Shown: positions 4,744-24,768 of the stretch, piece after piece
Numbering within the stretch: position 1 is the first letter of the stretch
How the letters are laid out: every line of letters starts with the position of its first letter
Assembly (NCBI GenBank): GCA_947489705.1
Contig: CANLEQ010000003.1
Span: forward strand, 1 to 64,000
Length of the DNA stretch: 64,000 nucleotides
Origin: an uncultured Paracoccaceae bacterium
Lineage (GTDB): Bacteria; Pseudomonadota; Alphaproteobacteria; Rhodobacterales; Rhodobacteraceae
Reading direction: 5' to 3'
Position numbers and translations under genes: made by a program
Notes under the pieces: generated by a model
Databases searched by the model: none
Told to the model about the DNA's origin: nothing
What the model saw: only the letters and a program-made list of their open reading frames with translations

Positions 4744-5646
4744 TCAGGCGGCAGCGGTCGCCATGCCGTATTCCGTCGAGCAGAATTCGGACAGGACTTC
4801 GGCGTAAGCGGGGTCCTGTTGCGCCACGTAAAGCGTGGCGGACAGCATTCCCTGCTTGGATCCACAATCGAAACGACGGCCCGAGAACGCGAAGCCGGCA
4901 AGACCGACCCGGTCGATCCCGGCCGCGATGGCGTCGGTCAGCTGGTATTCGCCCCCCGCGCCGGGTTCCAGCCTGTCGAGATCGGCGAAGATCGACGCGT
5001 CGAGCACGTACCGCCCCACAACCGCCTGCCGCGAGGGCGCCTCCTCGGGCGCAGGCTTCTCGACCATGCCGGAGGAAAAGATCACCTTGCCTTCGGTCCG
5101 TTCGGGGGTGAGCACGCCGTAGGAGCTGACCGCCTCGCGCGAAACTTCCATCGTCGCGACCATGTGGCCGGCGTCGCATGTCGCATAGGCATCGACCATC
5201 TCGGCAAGGCACCCCATCCTGCCGAGGATCAGGTCGTCCGGCAGGATCACGGCGACGGCCCCCGGAAGGGCGTGCTTCGCCGCACAATTGACCGCATGGC
5301 CAAGCCCCAACGGCTCGTCCTGCATGACGAAGATGACCTCGTGGCTTTCCTCGTCGAGCGCGTCCTTCTCCATCTGGCGCGCCACCTTGCCCTTGCCCTT
5401 GTCGCGCAGGGTCCGCGACAGATCGGCATCGTAGCGCACATGCCGTTCGATCGAGGATTTCGACGGGTGGCTGACGAAGACCATGCGCTCGATCCCCGCG
5501 GCACGCGCTTCGTCGATCGCATACTGGATGAGCGGGGTATCGATCACGGGAAGAAGTTCTTTCGGCGTGGCCTTCGTGGCCGGAAGGAATCGCGTACCAA
5601 GCCCTGCAACGGGAAAGATTGCGGTACGGACTGCGGCATTCGACAT
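4744..5646 (-). CDS. galU: UTP--glucose-1-phosphate uridylyltransferase
   Basis: A 300-residue cytosolic enzyme that makes UDP-glucose from UTP and glucose 1-phosphate, feeding envelope polysaccharides and other glucosides. The nucleotidyltransferase signature AGLGTRFLPATKATPKELLP lies at residues 14-33, followed by the family blocks FVMQDEPLGLGHAV (about 106-119) and ILPDDLILG. Length equals the usual 290-305. The start (MSNAAVRTAIFPVAG) is the only one that keeps the N-terminal strand intact. It is transcribed away from gpsA across a 397-base gap holding a perfect palindrome. UDP-glucose would be useful to the polysaccharide cluster further right. Confidence 0.95.
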   Translation of the reverse strand: MSNAAVRTAIFPVAGLGTRFLPATKATPKELLPVIDTPLIQYAIDEARAAGIERMVFVSHPSKSSIERHVRYDADLSRTLRDKGKGKVARQMEKDALDEESHEVIFVMQDEPLGLGHAVNCAAKHALPGAVAVILPDDLILGRMGCLAEMVDAYATCDAGHMVATMEVSREAVSSYGVLTPERTEGKVIFSSGMVEKPAPEEAPSRQAVVGRYVLDASIFADLDRLEPGAGGEYQLTDAIAAGIDRVGLAGFAFSGRRFDCGSKQGMLSATLYVAQQDPAYAEVLSEFCSTEYGMATAAA

Positions 5647-6043
5647 AAGCGTGTTCCTGTTGGTTGGGTTCCTGAAGCCGATGTTGCAACGCAGCATATG
5701 CGCTTTGGTTGCGACAAACAGCGCCATGTTCGCAACGTCGCAGGCCATGCCTGGCGGGGCCGAGGGTAAATCATCAGGCAAACCAGTCGCTTGCATCGCG
5801 TTCCGCGATGCCCTGCCTGTCGGAGGGAATTCGTGGAGAATTTGTTTCGCGCGCGAAACGCTTCTCCGTTGGGCTTGTCGCCCGTTTCGCGGGCACGTCG
5901 AGCATGCAAACCGCCGCCGGGCCCGCCGCAATCCGATTGCTTTCGCGTCTCCGTCGTCTAGATCATTCACCGGGTGGAGCAGGTGCAATTCGCTGGATCC
6001 TGCCCTAGGATGCCTGTGTTCAGCATGACCCAAGGACCGATAC
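5647..6043. other. Divergent control region between galU and gpsA
   Basis: No gene is seen in these 397 bases. They hold the promoters of two divergent genes and, near the middle, a perfect 16-base palindrome (separate entry). An AAGGACC ribosome-binding site precedes the gpsA ATG. No clear sigma-70 hexamers could be chosen for either direction. Confidence 0.5.
5844..5859. promoter_or_regulatory. Perfect palindrome GTTTCGCG|CGCGAAAC, candidate operator
   Basis: A 16-base perfect palindrome with an A/T-bearing outer half and a CG-alternating core, about 200 bases from both the galU and gpsA starts. The same sequence recurs inside a longer palindrome upstream of rpe (52567-52588), also intergenic. 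An even-length palindrome with a central CpG is what LacI-family regulators bind. A central-carbon LacI regulator such as CceR of Rhodobacter is a conceivable owner, but this is not verified. Confidence 0.55.
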
Positions 6044-7159
6044 ATGACGCTCAGCAAGTCCGACCAGCAGATGCTCACATCGCTGGCCAAACCCTATCAT
6101 CGCATTGCGGTGATCGGCGCGGGATCGTGGGGCACCGCCCTTGCGACCGTGGCACGCCGCGCGGGGCGCGAGGTCGTCATCTGGGGTCGCGACGAGGCCG
6201 TCACCCGGGCCATCTCGGAAGGCCGCGAGAATCCCAGATACCTTCCCGGTAACACCCTGCCCGAGGGCATCGAGGCGACCACCGACATGAAGGCGGCGCT
6301 CGACGGGGCCGAGGCGGTGCTCATCGTGACGCCCTCGACGACCCTGCGCAGCGTCTGTGCGCAGATGAAACCCCATCTCGCGCCCGGCGTGCCGGTCGCG
6401 CTCTGCGCCAAGGGGATCGAGGCCAAGACCGGCCTGCTGCTCGGGGAGGTCGCGTCGCAGGAGCTTCCCGGCCATCAGATCGGCGCGCTGTCCGGCCCGA
6501 CCTTCGCCAAGGAAACCGTGCTCGGTCATCCGACAGCGGCGACCGTCGCCTTCGACTTCCGCTATGCCGACCGGCTCGCGCCCCAGGAAAGCCCGGCCGC
6601 GCGGCTCGCCATCTCGATGAGTTCGGAATCCTTCCGCCCCTATATCAGCGACGACCTGGTGGGGGTCGAGATCGGCGGGGCGGTCAAGAACGTCATCGCC
6701 ATCGCCTGCGGGATGATGTCCGGCGCGGGCTTTGCCGAGAATACCCGCGCGGCGCTCATCACCCGCGGCATGGACGAGATGAAGACCCTCGCCGAGACGC
6801 TGGGCGGCCGCCGCGAGACGGTGACGGGCCTTTCGGGCGCCGGCGACCTGACGCTCACCTGTTCGTCCACCACGTCGCGCAACATGAGCCTCGGCACGCA
6901 GCTGGGCCAGGGCCTGCGGCGCGAGGATTGCTTCAATGGTGAGCCGGTGGTCGTCGAGGGCGAGGTCAACTCGATCTCGGTCGTCGATCTCGCGAACCAG
7001 ATCGGCGTCACTCTGCCGATCTGCGAGGCGGTCCATTCGATCCTTCACGAGGGCGCCGATCTCGCACAGACCTTCCGCGATCTGTGGTCGCGCCCCATCG
7101 AGGCCGAGCCAAAGGCGCTCGTCATTTCCCTCAATCATCCCTTTGGAGAACACGCATGA
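6044..7159 (+). CDS. gpsA: NAD(P)-dependent glycerol-3-phosphate dehydrogenase
   Basis: A 371-residue enzyme reducing dihydroxyacetone phosphate to sn-glycerol 3-phosphate. The Rossmann motif GAGSWG is at 25-30, CAKGIE at 121-126, the catalytic lysine is Lys215 in GGAVKN, and LSGAGDLTLTC follows at about 263-273. It is some 35-45 residues longer than the usual enzyme, from an N-terminal extension and a small insertion after residue 175. It overlaps the next gene by four bases (ATGA) and heads a three-gene operon with a sugar-phosphate phosphatase and ggpS. It therefore probably supplies glycerol 3-phosphate specifically for glucosylglycerol. Whether a second housekeeping gpsA exists outside the window is unknown. 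Confidence 0.93.
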   Translation: MTLSKSDQQMLTSLAKPYHRIAVIGAGSWGTALATVARRAGREVVIWGRDEAVTRAISEGRENPRYLPGNTLPEGIEATTDMKAALDGAEAVLIVTPSTTLRSVCAQMKPHLAPGVPVALCAKGIEAKTGLLLGEVASQELPGHQIGALSGPTFAKETVLGHPTAATVAFDFRYADRLAPQESPAARLAISMSSESFRPYISDDLVGVEIGGAVKNVIAIACGMMSGAGFAENTRAALITRGMDEMKTLAETLGGRRETVTGLSGAGDLTLTCSSTTSRNMSLGTQLGQGLRREDCFNGEPVVVEGEVNSISVVDLANQIGVTLPICEAVHSILHEGADLAQTFRDLWSRPIEAEPKALVISLNHPFGEHA

Positions 7160-17133: not shown

Positions 17134-18561
17134 TCAGCCGTCCAGATGCGCGACCGCCAGCGCGAGATCGGCCCGGAAATCCCGTGTCGCCGCGTCCTTT
17201 GCCGCCGCATTCGGCACCCGCAGGAGATAGGAGGGATGCAGCGTGAGGAGGATTTCCGTCCCGTCTGCGGCGGTCTCGAACGTGCCGCGGCGCTTGAGGA
17301 TGCCCTGCCCCGTGCCCGTGAGGCTCGCGGCGGCGGTGGCCCCCATCGCGAGGATCAATTTCGGACGGATCAGGTCGCGTTCGGCGTCGAGCCACCATTT
17401 GCACGCCTGCACCTCGCCGCCATCGGGTCGCTGATGGAGACGCCGCTTGCCACGGGGCGCGAACTTGAAATGCTTGACGGCGTTGGTCACGTAGACCCGG
17501 TCGCGATCGAGCCCGACCTCTCCGGCGATCTCGTCGAAAAGCTGTCCGGCGGGTCCGACGAAGGGCCGGCCGGCCAGATCCTCCTGATCGCCCGGTTGCT
17601 CGCCCACGATCATCAGCGGCGCATCGCGGGGCCCCTCGCCCATCACCACCTGCGTCGCGTTGCGGTGCAAGGGGCAACGCGTGCATCCCTCCGCCTCGCG
17701 GCGCAGGGCCTCGATATCGGTGGCGGCGGGGGCGTCGTCGGTCATCCTGAGCCTTTCGCTGATCCGCCCGGCCCGGATGGGCGCGAGCGAGGGTGTCGCA
17801 AGCTGCATCTCGCGGGCCCGGGCCTCGGCGCTCGCGATCATGTCGGGGATCGCCGCGGCCTCGGGGAGGTTCCGCCAGTATTTCTTCGGCATCTCCGATT
17901 GCATCGCCTGGATCTTGAGGCGCGCGGGGTTGAAGATGTTCCGGAAATACGTCGTCCAGAGACCTTCGGTCGCATCCTCCGGCAGGTCCGGCTTCGGCTG
18001 ACCGGGGGCGAGCGAGACCGCGCCGTCGGTGAAGATCAGCGTCCGGTCGGGCGTCGCGATCATCCAGTCCATGTCGCCGAAGCGCCGCGCGAAAAAGCCC
18101 GCCATCGGCTCCACGATGTGATGCTCGGGCTCGAACCAGGCGGCGAAGCGGCGGCGCGAACCCTCGGCGTCGATCTCGCGAAACCGGACGAAGGCTTTCA
18201 TCTTGTGCTTGTCGCGGCGAACCGCCTTTTCCAGCCCGCGCAGGGTGGCGAGCGCCGCGTCCCCGCGATCCTGCATCAATCCGGGCGTCTCTCGCAGGCG
18301 CCACAGGAACGCATAGAGCCGCGCGAACCGTTCGGGATCGCTGTGCCAGCAGACCGTCTGGGAGAGTTCGACGAAGCTTTTGGGCACGCTGGCGGGCTGC
18401 GTGGCGGGCCGGGTCGCGGTGCCGCCGGCAAAAAGGTCCGGCTGGGCCTCGCCATATTGCCAGATGACCTCGCCGGGAGACGTCCCCGACGCCAGAAGAT
18501 CCCGCGCCGCCGTTCGCCATGCCGCGGCCGTGTCGAGCTCGGGCACGCGGATCGTCCGCAT
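17134..18561 (-). CDS. udgX: DUF4130-UdgX fusion, uracil-DNA glycosylase family
   Basis: A 475-residue two-domain protein. Residues about 1-250 are DUF4130, the partner domain commonly fused to or beside UdgX. Residues about 280-475 are a UdgX-type member of the uracil-DNA glycosylase superfamily: active-site motif GEQPGDQEDLAGRPFVGPAG (320-339) and HPSYLLR near 442. The UdgX-specific loop is KRRLH (372-376); the equivalent His of mycobacterial UdgX forms a covalent bond with the abasic site after uracil removal. Possible Fe-S ligands are Cys293, Cys296 and Cys387; the family-4 cysteine in the strand before the loop is His364 here. It shares one base with the upstream radical SAM gene stop, so they are one operon. 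Likely function is capture or repair of damaged DNA. Confidence 0.9.
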   Translation of the reverse strand: MRTIRVPELDTAAAWRTAARDLLASGTSPGEVIWQYGEAQPDLFAGGTATRPATQPASVPKSFVELSQTVCWHSDPERFARLYAFLWRLRETPGLMQDRGDAALATLRGLEKAVRRDKHKMKAFVRFREIDAEGSRRRFAAWFEPEHHIVEPMAGFFARRFGDMDWMIATPDRTLIFTDGAVSLAPGQPKPDLPEDATEGLWTTYFRNIFNPARLKIQAMQSEMPKKYWRNLPEAAAIPDMIASAEARAREMQLATPSLAPIRAGRISERLRMTDDAPAATDIEALRREAEGCTRCPLHRNATQVVMGEGPRDAPLMIVGEQPGDQEDLAGRPFVGPAGQLFDEIAGEVGLDRDRVYVTNAVKHFKFAPRGKRRLHQRPDGGEVQACKWWLDAERDLIRPKLILAMGATAAASLTGTGQGILKRRGTFETAADGTEILLTLHPSYLLRVPNAAAKDAATRDFRADLALAVAHLDG

Positions 18562-19796
18562 CAGAAAAGGCTCAGCTGTTCCGGTGCGGGTGCGAATCTC
18601 GCCCGCAGATCGGCGGTATCGGTCAGGGCCCCGGGGCTCCAGCCGCCGGCGGTGATGAAGGCGCGCGCCTTCTTGAGGCTCGCCCCCATGCGCGTCAGAT
18701 CCTCGTAGCGCAGGGTGCGATGCCGCCGCGTGGTCAGGATCCTGTTGACGGTCTTCACGCCGAATCCCGGTATCCGCAGGAGCATCTCGCGCGGGGCGCG
18801 GTTCACGTCGAGCGGAAAGTGATGCCGGTTGCGCAGGGCCCAGGCCAGCTTCGGGTCGATCGTGAGGTCGAGATTTCCGTCCGCCGCGCCGTCGGTGATC
18901 TCGGCCAGATCGAACCCGTAGAACCGCAGCAGCCAGTCTGCCTGGTAAAGCCGATGCTCGCGTTCCAGGGGCGGACGGATCAGCGGCAGTTTCGCCGTGG
19001 AATCGGGGATCGGCGAAAAGGCCGAATAATAGACGCGCTTGAGCCCGTAACTCGCATAGAGACGCGTGGACTGGCCGAGGATCGCCGCGTCGTTCGCGCC
19101 ATCCGCGCCGACGATCATCTGCGTGCTCTGCCCCGCGGGCGCGAACCGCGCGGGGCGCTTGCCGGTATGCGAGCGGTCCTTCGACGCCTCGCGGGTGAGA
19201 CGTACATCGGCCATCGCCTTGCGGATCGTGCCGGGGTTCTTTTCGGGCGCATAGGCGCGCACCGAGGCGTCGGTCGGAAGTTCCACGTTGATCGACAGGC
19301 GATCGGCGTGGAGCCCCGCCTCCTCGATCAGCTTGGGATCGGCATCGGGGATGGTCTTGAGATGGATATAGCCGCGGAAATTGTGCTTCAGGCGCAGGTC
19401 GCGGGCGATCCGCACCATGTCGGCCATCGTGTCGTCGGGCGAGCGGATGATCCCCGAGCTGAGGAACAGGCCCTCGATGTAATTGCGCCGGTAGAATTCC
19501 AGCGTGAGGGTGACGACCTCCTCGGGCGAGAACCGCGCACGCGTGACGTTGGAGCTCACGCGATTCACGCAATAGGCGCAATCGTAGATGCAGAAATTCG
19601 TCATCAGGATCTTCAGCAGGCTGATGCAGCGCCCGTCCGGCGCGTAGGCGTGGCAGATCCCCGACCCTTCGGTCGAGCCGAGGCCGCTCCCGTCGCGGGA
19701 GCTGCGCTTGGCCGTGCCCGAGGAGGCACAGCTCGCGTCGTATTTCGCGGCGTCCGAGAGGATCGCGAGTTTCTGCTGGAGATCGAGCTTGCCCAT
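18561..19796 (-). CDS. Putative DNA modification/repair radical SAM protein
   Basis: A 411-residue radical SAM enzyme of the family always found with UdgX/DUF4130 proteins. The 4Fe-4S motif is Cys69-x3-Cys73-x2-Cys76 in FCIYDCAYCVN. A second cysteine pair (Cys48, Cys57) lies upstream. GLFLSSGIIRSPDDTM (109-124) is the SAM-binding GGE-like region. A helix-hairpin-helix DNA-binding motif, LLRIPGFGVKTVNRIL, occupies about 339-354. The reaction is unknown; DNA is the inferred substrate. The stop overlaps the start of the UdgX fusion by one base. It is the first gene of the pair, behind a short gap from ychF. Confidence 0.9.
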   Translation of the reverse strand: MGKLDLQQKLAILSDAAKYDASCASSGTAKRSSRDGSGLGSTEGSGICHAYAPDGRCISLLKILMTNFCIYDCAYCVNRVSSNVTRARFSPEEVVTLTLEFYRRNYIEGLFLSSGIIRSPDDTMADMVRIARDLRLKHNFRGYIHLKTIPDADPKLIEEAGLHADRLSINVELPTDASVRAYAPEKNPGTIRKAMADVRLTREASKDRSHTGKRPARFAPAGQSTQMIVGADGANDAAILGQSTRLYASYGLKRVYYSAFSPIPDSTAKLPLIRPPLEREHRLYQADWLLRFYGFDLAEITDGAADGNLDLTIDPKLAWALRNRHHFPLDVNRAPREMLLRIPGFGVKTVNRILTTRRHRTLRYEDLTRMGASLKKARAFITAGGWSPGALTDTADLRARFAPAPEQLSLF

Positions 19797-19873
19797 CCTC
19801 GGAACATACGTCCCGCGACCATGGCGAACAAGTGGCGAACACTGCGACGGTTTGACCCCCGCCCGGGGCGTGC

Positions 19874-23513: not shown

Positions 23514-23598
23514 CCGCCCTGCGGCGGCATCGCGTTTGCGCCGCCCTGTCCGGTCGGCTAGAGCTTGGCCGTCGCGCGTTTCACCGGGAGGATCATCC

Positions 23599-24768
23599 AT
23601 GCCGCATATCACCGAGATCGAGGACCTGAAGCGGATCTACCGCCGCCGGGTGCCCAAGATGTTCTACGATTACTGTGAGAGCGGCTCCTGGACGGAACAG
23701 ACATTCCGCGACAATTCCACCGATTTCGACCTGCTGCGGCTGCGCCAGCGGGTTGCGGTCAACATGGACGACCGCTCCACCTCCTCGACCATGATCGGCG
23801 AGGAGGTCGCGATGCCAGTGGCGCTGGCGCCCGTGGGCATGACCGGCATGCAGCATGCCGACGGCGAGATCCTGGCGGCCCAGGCCGCCGAGGAATTCGG
23901 CGTGCCCTTCACGCTGTCGACCATGTCGATCTGTTCGATCGAGGACGTCGCCCAGCACACGAAAAAGCCGTTCTGGTTCCAGCTCTACGTGATGCGCGAC
24001 GAGGAATTTCTCGAGAACGTCATCGAACGCGCGCGGGCCGCCGGGTGTTCGGCGATGGTTCTCACGCTCGATTTGCAGGTGCTGGGACAGCGCCACAAGG
24101 ACATCAAGAACGGGCTGTCCGCCCCGCCCAAGCTGACCCCGAAAACCATCGCGAACCTCGCCACGAAATGGGGCTGGGGCATGGAAATGCTCCAGACCAA
24201 GCGCCGCAATTTCGGCAACATCGTGGGCCACGCCAAGGGCGTGAAGGACGTGAGTTCGCTCGGGTCCTGGACGGCCGAGCAATTCGACCCGCGGCTCGAC
24301 TGGGAGAAGGTCAGGCGCATCAAGGAGAAATGGGGCGGCAAGCTGATCCTGAAGGGGATCCTCGACCCCGAGGATGCGCGCCGCGCCCTCGATATCGGGG
24401 CCGACGCGATCATCGTCAGCAACCATGGCGGCCGCCAGCTCGATGGCGCGCTGAGCTCGATCCGCACCCTGCCCGAGATCGTCGAGGCCGTGGGCGGCCA
24501 GACCGAGATCCATCTCGACAGCGGCATCCGCTCGGGTCAGGACGTGCTCAAGGCGCTCGCCATGGGCGCGGACGCCACGCATATCGGCCGCGCCTTCGTC
24601 TACGGGCTCGGCGCGCGCGGCAAGAAAGGCGTCACCGAGGCGCTCGGCGTGATCCATAAGGAACTCGACACGACGATGGCGCTCTGCGGACGTCGCGACG
24701 TCAAGAACGTGGATCGCGACATCCTGCTGATCGACGACGCGTTCCATCGGTATCGCCGGAACATCTGA
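23599..24768 (+). CDS. lldD: FMN-dependent alpha-hydroxy acid dehydrogenase, probably L-lactate dehydrogenase
   Basis: A 389-residue member of the FMN-dependent alpha-hydroxy acid oxidase/dehydrogenase family, probably oxidising L-lactate to pyruvate and giving electrons to quinone. Family motifs are LAPVGMTGMQHADGE, FQLYVMRD, LTLDLQVLGQRHKD, LILKGILDPEDARRA and the catalytic SNHGGRQLDG, followed by DSGIRSGQDVLKALAMGA for FMN phosphate. GGGAGGA precedes ATG 23599. Length and the WGWGMEMLQ segment fit LldD better than glycolate or mandelate enzymes, but substrate is inferred. The stop overlaps the amylosucrase start in TGATG, so both are co-translated. Confidence 0.88.
   Translation: MPHITEIEDLKRIYRRRVPKMFYDYCESGSWTEQTFRDNSTDFDLLRLRQRVAVNMDDRSTSSTMIGEEVAMPVALAPVGMTGMQHADGEILAAQAAEEFGVPFTLSTMSICSIEDVAQHTKKPFWFQLYVMRDEEFLENVIERARAAGCSAMVLTLDLQVLGQRHKDIKNGLSAPPKLTPKTIANLATKWGWGMEMLQTKRRNFGNIVGHAKGVKDVSSLGSWTAEQFDPRLDWEKVRRIKEKWGGKLILKGILDPEDARRALDIGADAIIVSNHGGRQLDGALSSIRTLPEIVEAVGGQTEIHLDSGIRSGQDVLKALAMGADATHIGRAFVYGLGARGKKGVTEALGVIHKELDTTMALCGRRDVKNVDRDILLIDDAFHRYRRNI

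Follow-up and report, generated by a model that had tools for sequence, protein, structure and literature searches.

What does a radical SAM enzyme do when its gene is joined to that of a uracil-DNA-binding protein? This question is raised by two overlapping genes on the reverse strand of a 64,000-nt stretch of DNA from an uncultured Paracoccaceae bacterium (assembly GCA_947489705.1, contig CANLEQ010000003.1, positions 1 to 64,000; hereafter the window). A first-pass annotation had described them as a "UdgX fusion" and a radical SAM/helix-hairpin-helix enzyme forming one DNA-lesion system of undescribed chemistry. Here, we found that the fusion carries a further domain, DUF4130, which is the constant partner of the radical SAM protein, while UdgX is an optional part, and that a LexA box is conserved upstream of both genes. 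We propose, at a probability of about 55%, that the locus is an SOS-induced DNA-lesion repair operon with a radical SAM-DUF4130 core and UdgX as an accessory.

A radical SAM gene overlaps a DUF4130-UdgX fusion gene

The upstream gene (18561..19796, minus strand) encodes a 411-aa radical SAM protein, and the downstream gene (17134..18561, minus strand) a 475-aa fusion whose start codon overlaps the upstream stop, with base 18561 common to the TGA and the ATG (TGATG). The radical SAM protein matched NCBIfam TIGR03916 (rSAM_link_UDG, 'putative DNA modification/repair radical SAM protein') with 575.7 bits against a cut-off of 343.5, and the Pfam Radical_SAM model with 36.0 bits against 29.5. The N-terminal half of the fusion (17857..18534, minus strand) matched TIGR03915 (211.3 bits, cut-off 112.25; NCBIfam) and PF13566, or DUF4130 (136.8, cut-off 27; Pfam). 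The remainder (17158..17853, minus strand) matched TIGR03914, the UdgX uracil-DNA-binding and cross-linking domain (329.4 bits, cut-off 189.95; NCBIfam), and Pfam added a match to its uracil-DNA glycosylase (UDG) model. Given that the fusion matches both TIGR03915/DUF4130 and TIGR03914/UDG, the "UdgX fusion" is therefore a DUF4130-UdgX fusion. The first-pass annotation was correct about the two genes, their shared base and the UdgX domain, but it had overlooked the DUF4130 domain at the N-terminus.

The overlapping junction is conserved across loci. Of the 115 radical SAM-DUF4130 junctions that were scored, 58 had an ATG in frame with DUF4130 overlapping the stop codon by one base and 17 had one overlapping it by four bases, which makes 75 of the 115 with a stop/ATG overlap of either length, while every other in-frame ATG offset within 40 nt occurred in at most five junctions. 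When GTG and TTG were accepted as well and the start codon closest to the stop was taken, the one-base overlap was found in 58 junctions, the four-base overlap in 21, and a gap of more than 20 nt in 12.

DUF4130 is the constant partner of the radical SAM protein

Co-occurrence was scored at the NCBIfam cut-offs in 299 genomes of the window's phylum, taken as Pseudomonadota. TIGR03916 was over its cut-off in 53 genomes, TIGR03915 in 56 and TIGR03914 in 52; Caulobacter vibrioides, a named control, was positive for all three. DUF4130 was present in all 53 genomes with the radical SAM gene (Fisher p about 1e-55), and UdgX in 40 of these 53 compared with 12 of the 246 others (p about 1e-27), although the sampled genomes are related and both p-values therefore overstate their independence. 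The first-pass annotation had suggested checking the co-occurrence of the radical SAM and UdgX genes, and this indeed lies far beyond chance (40/53 vs 12/246); the two do not, however, form a constant pair, since UdgX was not found over cut-off in 13 of the 53 genomes in which DUF4130 never failed. Of the 15 genomes that represent the window's family, 7 carried both the radical SAM gene and DUF4130, and the other 8 carried neither.

The same pattern was observed at the level of loci. We used the best 80 of 584 confirmed stretches, of which 79 bear alphaproteobacterial names and one (L111) is named only 'Pseudomonadota bacterium'. All 80 had DUF4130 downstream of the radical SAM gene in the same orientation; UdgX was present in 71 and was not found in 9. 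Further afield, DUF4130 lay downstream of the radical SAM gene in six of six stretches, namely Spirosoma, an 'Acinetobacter phage' record, Fusobacterium and three gut contigs, and no UdgX was found in the stretch examined of any of them; the gene set also occurs in Bacteroidota and Fusobacteriota. In Cupriavidus, both DUF4130 and UdgX lie beside the radical SAM gene, and in the Gemmatirosa locus (L116) neither does. For the 71 loci with all three parts, pairwise distances correlated most closely between the radical SAM protein and DUF4130 (r=0.795), less so between DUF4130 and UdgX (0.661) and least between the radical SAM protein and UdgX (0.588), values that are to be read with no unlinked control gene beside them. 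Taken together, these results show that DUF4130 is the radical SAM protein's constant partner and UdgX an optional part.

A LexA box is conserved upstream of the operon

An exact GTTC-N7-GTTC sequence, GTTCGCCACTTGTTC (19826..19840, minus strand), lies within the 77-nt gap (19797-19873) upstream of the radical SAM gene, 29 nt ahead of its start codon; the first-pass annotation had missed it. GTTC-N7-GTTC is described as the alphaproteobacterial LexA motif in PMC8565304. In 64 kb, 1.43 occurrences are expected by chance and two were observed; the second (24047-24061) lies within a long open reading frame (ORF, 23536-24768) and is probably a chance match. Genome-wide, the motif occurred 135 times compared with 56 for a reversed control; in the same genome, lexA is closely preceded by two overlapping copies, and one copy precedes recA.

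The box was found no more than 250 nt upstream of the radical SAM profile match in 77 of the 80 loci (the misses being L053, L077 and L103), with 78 sites in the 100 nt preceding the match and 24 elsewhere along the loci, compared with 23 hits in 3809 random 250-nt segments. We also scanned 300 nt upstream of the gene in all 53 radical-SAM genomes of the phylum sample. All 36 genomes of the window's class had a GTTC/GAAC-type box. LexA of beta- and gammaproteobacteria recognises a different motif, CTGT-N8-ACAG. Among the other 17 genomes, this motif was exact in 12 and present as a one-base CCAG variant, identified by eye, in 3 (L141-L143), and no box was found in 2 (L003 and L025); its background was 23 in 8040 segments. 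In total, 48 of the 53 genomes carried an exact box, 3 a one-base variant and 2 none. Since a clade-appropriate box is kept in both groups, the link between the operon and the SOS response persists despite the differing LexA motif.

Loci that lack one part showed with which part the box travels. Three DUF4130 loci without a radical SAM gene (L127, L128 and L129, two of them with UdgX) retain a LexA box 164-258 nt ahead of the DUF4130 match, while 9 of 10 UdgX loci lacking both a radical SAM gene and an intact DUF4130 (L160-L169) had no box in the upstream stretch. These results indicate that the box goes with the core and not with UdgX. The exception, L162 (genome G071), is a decayed operon that keeps the LexA box and UdgX in a genome with no radical SAM gene over cut-off, and its DUF4130 is a C-terminal remnant with one in-frame TGA. 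L160 also keeps a DUF4130 remnant, and some stand-alone UdgX genes may thus derive from the fusion.

Taken together, the operon is almost certainly SOS-regulated, and induction upon DNA damage would be expected in the source organism as judged from its sequence. The conserved LexA box supports the proposal of the first-pass annotation that the two genes form one system tied to DNA lesions.

Conserved motifs of the radical SAM protein

Across 118 radical SAM sequences, including that of the window, only six cysteine columns reached at least 80% conservation: C23, C48, C57, C69, C73 and C76. The last three form the CxxxCxxC radical-SAM cluster motif (19569..19592, minus strand) and are kept in 118 of 118 sequences, in agreement with the first-pass annotation. 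The other three, which that annotation had not reported, lie together with a conserved H49 in the N-terminal region (19626..19730, minus strand); C48 and C57 were kept in 117 of 118 sequences and C23 in 116. All three are missing from the distant Gemmatirosa relative L116, and C23 is gapped in L058, where the frame is apparently split. This conservation suggests that the residues are candidate ligands of an auxiliary (second) Fe-S cluster. The Gemmatirosa protein (L116:5001-6197), a relative at 37% identity with no DUF4130 found nearby, possibly represents a sister family.

The first-pass annotation had also assigned a DNA-binding helix-hairpin-helix (HhH) to this protein. When the C-terminal 99 residues were excised and compared with Pfam HHH_5, a match of E=0.0013 was obtained, at 19.6 bits under the 27-bit cut-off, and the C-terminus gave weak profile matches to ComEA and RuvA (E 0.037-0.12). 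An HhH-like region (18735..18860, minus strand) is therefore plausible, although the match does not reach the level of a Pfam assignment.

The structure model of the radical SAM protein had a mean pLDDT (predicted local distance difference test) of 81.7, with block means of 32-52 over residues 21-60; it is poor at residues 21-56, where C23 and C48 fall. Its closest solved folds were HydG, HydE and BioB, at a TM-score of about 0.4, and 91 matches were obtained at E<=0.001.

The DUF4130 and UdgX domains

The model of the DUF4130 domain was of higher confidence (mean pLDDT 90.4). Close relatives prominently share the motifs HKMxAFVRF, WFEP and FNPAR, and in 13 diverse sequences seven columns were invariant (R126, F127, P145, F157, R160, I168 and R214). 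A sequence-profile search against the PDB gave nothing below E=0.5. We examined whether the domain could be a DHH phosphoesterase and did not retain this candidate, as none of the 50 listed PDB fold matches of the model was significant: 10 were DHH-type, with E from 0.075 and query TM-scores of at most 0.33, and 11 were ribosome chains. The DHH-type matches comprise RecJ, PAP phosphatase and family II pyrophosphatase, which we take to belong to that class. In BFVD, the best match (E=0.0071) was uncharacterised, and phosphohydrolase, exopolyphosphatase and DHH entries recurred from E=0.011 with TM-scores of at most 0.34. A DHH-like fold is thus a weak lead from the model. The role that we assign to DUF4130 below is suggested by gene linkage alone.

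The UdgX part of the fusion aligned to the solved UdgX chain 6ajo with E=1.2e-45, and it carries the motifs GEQPG at 320, KRRLH at 372 and HPSYLLR at 442. KRRLH (17434..17448, minus strand) corresponds to the R-loop, with H376 as the presumed nucleophilic histidine. According to PMC10359453, 6ajo is from Mycobacterium smegmatis, the UdgX motifs are given as GEQPG, the R-loop His and HPSxxLR, H109 (the equivalent of H376) has a nucleophilic role, and the described specificity is for uracil. Across 94 UdgX domains including that of the window, GEQPG was present in 90 and the R-loop His in 93, the exception for the latter being L080. C293, C296 and C387 were conserved in 87, 87 and 88 of the 94 domains, and no fourth 4Fe-4S ligand was identified among them. 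The window's genome also encodes a family-4-like paralogue without the R-loop (L002).

Neighbouring genes and mobile elements

Only the two genes of the operon were general among the 30 largest ORF clusters around the 80 loci; with antisense ORFs set aside, each other cluster was present in 12 loci at most. The radical SAM-DUF4130 gene pair was interrupted sporadically, in single or few loci, by beta-helix, hemerythrin or cytidine/dCMP-deaminase-family genes; one of the last kind lies between the two genes in Fulvimarina (L104:7904-8503).

The radical SAM gene was also found on 158 plasmid records, 58 of them from Phaeobacter, and 142 were typed as non-mobilizable. Two viral contigs were confirmed by pattern scan: L114 breaks off inside the radical SAM gene, and L113 carries the gene at 5001-6239 with an alpha-type LexA box upstream. 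Matches in phage collections comprised 8 gut contigs, all unverified, and 2 records named 'Acinetobacter phage'; in the one of these two that was inspected, the surroundings of the radical SAM gene look chromosomal (glyS, glyQ and others). A phage origin was not retained, as PHROG gave only one weak match, to a radical SAM family (E=0.0067), and none for the fusion. An anti-phage defence system was likewise set aside, with 0 PADLOC families matched by either protein at E<=0.01.

A proposed function and its alternatives

In the mechanism that we favour, LexA would repress the operon until DNA is damaged, and the two overlapping genes would then be co-translated. The radical SAM protein would bind damaged DNA through its C-terminal HhH, and its 5′-deoxyadenosyl radical, probably aided by the second N-terminal Fe-S cluster, would reverse or process a base lesion that DUF4130 may recognise or present. 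The fused UdgX would serve as an accessory, excising uracil on the same or nearby DNA, staying bound through its His and shielding the abasic site. Given that a damage-inducible promoter points to repair rather than to routine modification, repair is a rather likely function. That the reaction would be the direct reversal of such a lesion is doubtful.

Several observations weigh against this proposal. DNA is no more than a probable substrate. Three genomes of one genus (G200, G217 and G287) carry DUF4130 but no radical SAM gene, and the domain may therefore act on its own. In the viral contig L113, the 777 nt between the radical SAM gene and the contig end contain no DUF4130. Neither PDB nor BFVD gave a structural match to the DUF4130 model at E<=0.001. 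On the side of the radical SAM protein, the cysteines that suggest a second cluster fall in the low-confidence part of the model, and the HhH match stays under the Pfam cut-off. The relatedness of the genomes and the uncontrolled distance correlations mentioned above count here as well. Finally, the main text of a Caulobacter SOS-regulon paper (2025, PMC12700426), whose gene table is a supplement, contains neither uracil, glycosylase nor radical SAM, and a term search found these words absent also from the main texts of the alphaproteobacterial SOS papers PMC6473078 and PMC13384398.

Other functions can be imagined for the same parts. The first-pass annotation had proposed a sequential pathway, in which UdgX would capture a base modification once the radical SAM enzyme has made or undone it. 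In favour of this, the UdgX His is kept in 93 of 94 domains and the domain is enriched in radical-SAM genomes (40/53 vs 12/246). But UdgX was missing over cut-off from 13 of the 53 genomes and not found in 9 of the best 80 loci, and capture of a modification therefore cannot be the general function; moreover, 12 genomes carry UdgX but no radical SAM gene, 9 of the 10 of these that lack an intact DUF4130 show no LexA box in the upstream stretch, and the specificity described for UdgX in PMC10359453 is for uracil. No evidence for such capture was found, and we regard the sequential pathway as improbable. Slightly less improbable, though still unlikely, is a protein substrate: the radical SAM enzyme would modify or mature DUF4130, or the fused UdgX, and DUF4130 would be the effector on DNA. 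This would suit the presence of DUF4130 in 53 of 53 radical-SAM genomes, the stop/ATG overlap in 75 of 115 junctions and the maturases HydE and HydG among the closest solved folds, whereas the HhH-like C-terminus points to nucleic acid, DUF4130 persists in three genomes without its supposed maturase, and no obvious conserved target peptide was seen when the DUF4130 alignments were inspected by eye, with no dedicated test.

A role in SOS mutagenesis or lesion tolerance, with UdgX capping abasic or uracil sites and the core preparing template lesions for error-prone polymerases, has about the same small chance as a protein substrate. SOS control of the operon agrees with it, as do the wording 'a predicted mutagenesis-related enzyme' for DUF4130 in PMC3765255 and the tie between SOS uracil glycosylases and misincorporation by SOS-induced polymerases suggested in PMC8565304. 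No general neighbour, however, emerged from the 30 largest ORF clusters of the 80 loci (at most 12 loci each), although these clusters are unannotated and polymerases were not specifically excluded. The least probable is an enzyme of the SplB type, reversing photolesions as spore photoproduct lyase (SPL) does. The radical SAM fold, the association with DNA repair and the label 'SplB-like' in PMC3765255 speak for it. Against it, PMC8565304 lists SplB (COG1533) and COG4277 separately. At E<=0.001, only TIGR03916 and the general Radical_SAM model matched in NCBIfam and Pfam, libraries that we assume to contain SPL models, and no SPL entry was among the 50 listed PDB fold matches. SPL uses a conserved catalytic Cys C-terminal to its cluster, whereas no Cys in that position reached 80% in the 118 sequences. 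Accordingly, with neither an SPL profile match nor a C-terminal Cys, we rejected SplB membership of the radical SAM protein.

Our proposal of an SOS-induced repair operon can be extended. On this extension, the radical SAM-DUF4130 set would be a distinct and widespread SOS-induced machine outside the described pathways, in which a two-cluster enzyme directly repairs a DNA base lesion presented by DUF4130 and to which some lineages add a UdgX cap; this is tentative, and we would put the odds somewhat against it. If true, UdgX would covalently cap uracil or abasic sites formed nearby in those lineages. The constancy of DUF4130 and a LexA box kept across two LexA motif types turn a 'putative repair protein' into a testable claim, and to find a DNA-repair enzyme of the radical SAM type that differs in kind from spore photoproduct lyase would be a distinct step forward.

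Comparison with known systems

The gene set of the window is already named in NCBIfam, and the window copy is an ordinary member: all three parts score well over the cut-offs of TIGR03916, TIGR03915 and TIGR03914, with no difference in kind. These names give a putative repair or uracil-DNA-binding role and no chemistry, and a table in PMC8307549 lists a 'putative DNA modification/repair FeS-containing radical SAM protein' with its role as unknown. Of the 299 genomes sampled from the phylum, 53 carry the gene set, yet we found no described reaction for it in the open-licence PubMed Central (PMC) literature, where we also found no paper joining the name UdgX with radical SAM; its chemistry is uncharacterised, as the first-pass annotation had supposed. 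The association of the genes and their SOS control, on the other hand, are already in print, in PMC3765255 and PMC8565304. The system noticed in the first-pass annotation is thus real, but its central pair was misidentified there and its novelty was put too high.

Among solved structures, the nearest folds to the radical SAM model are those of HydE, HydG, BioB and LipA. Several enzymes of this type bear auxiliary clusters. The likeness to the window protein covers the core barrel only, at a TM-score of about 0.4 and 9-18% identity. The UdgX domain has the GEQPG, R-loop His and HPSxxLR motifs in common with M. smegmatis UdgX; the solved chains of the latter, of about 205-229 residues, consist of the UDG domain only, whereas the window domain has DUF4130 fused to it and belongs to an operon with a radical SAM gene.

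COG4277 is presumably the TIGR03916-type radical SAM/HhH family. Two published associations come closest to the locus. PMC3765255 (2013) links DUF4130, radical SAM and UDG, the same three-way set as in the window, although its 'SplB-like' label for the radical SAM protein is unsupported by the present tests. PMC8565304 (2021) reports a two-gene COG1573-COG4277 operon (UDG-COG4277) in the SOS networks of Bacteroidetes, cites reports from Verrucomicrobia and Alphaproteobacteria (Caulobacter), and suggests that SOS uracil glycosylases counter misincorporation by SOS-induced polymerases. Like the window locus, that operon consists of two genes, including one for a uracil-DNA glycosylase, under LexA. 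PMC8565304 reads it as uracil base-excision repair, whereas in the loci described here DUF4130 is constant and UdgX is dispensable.

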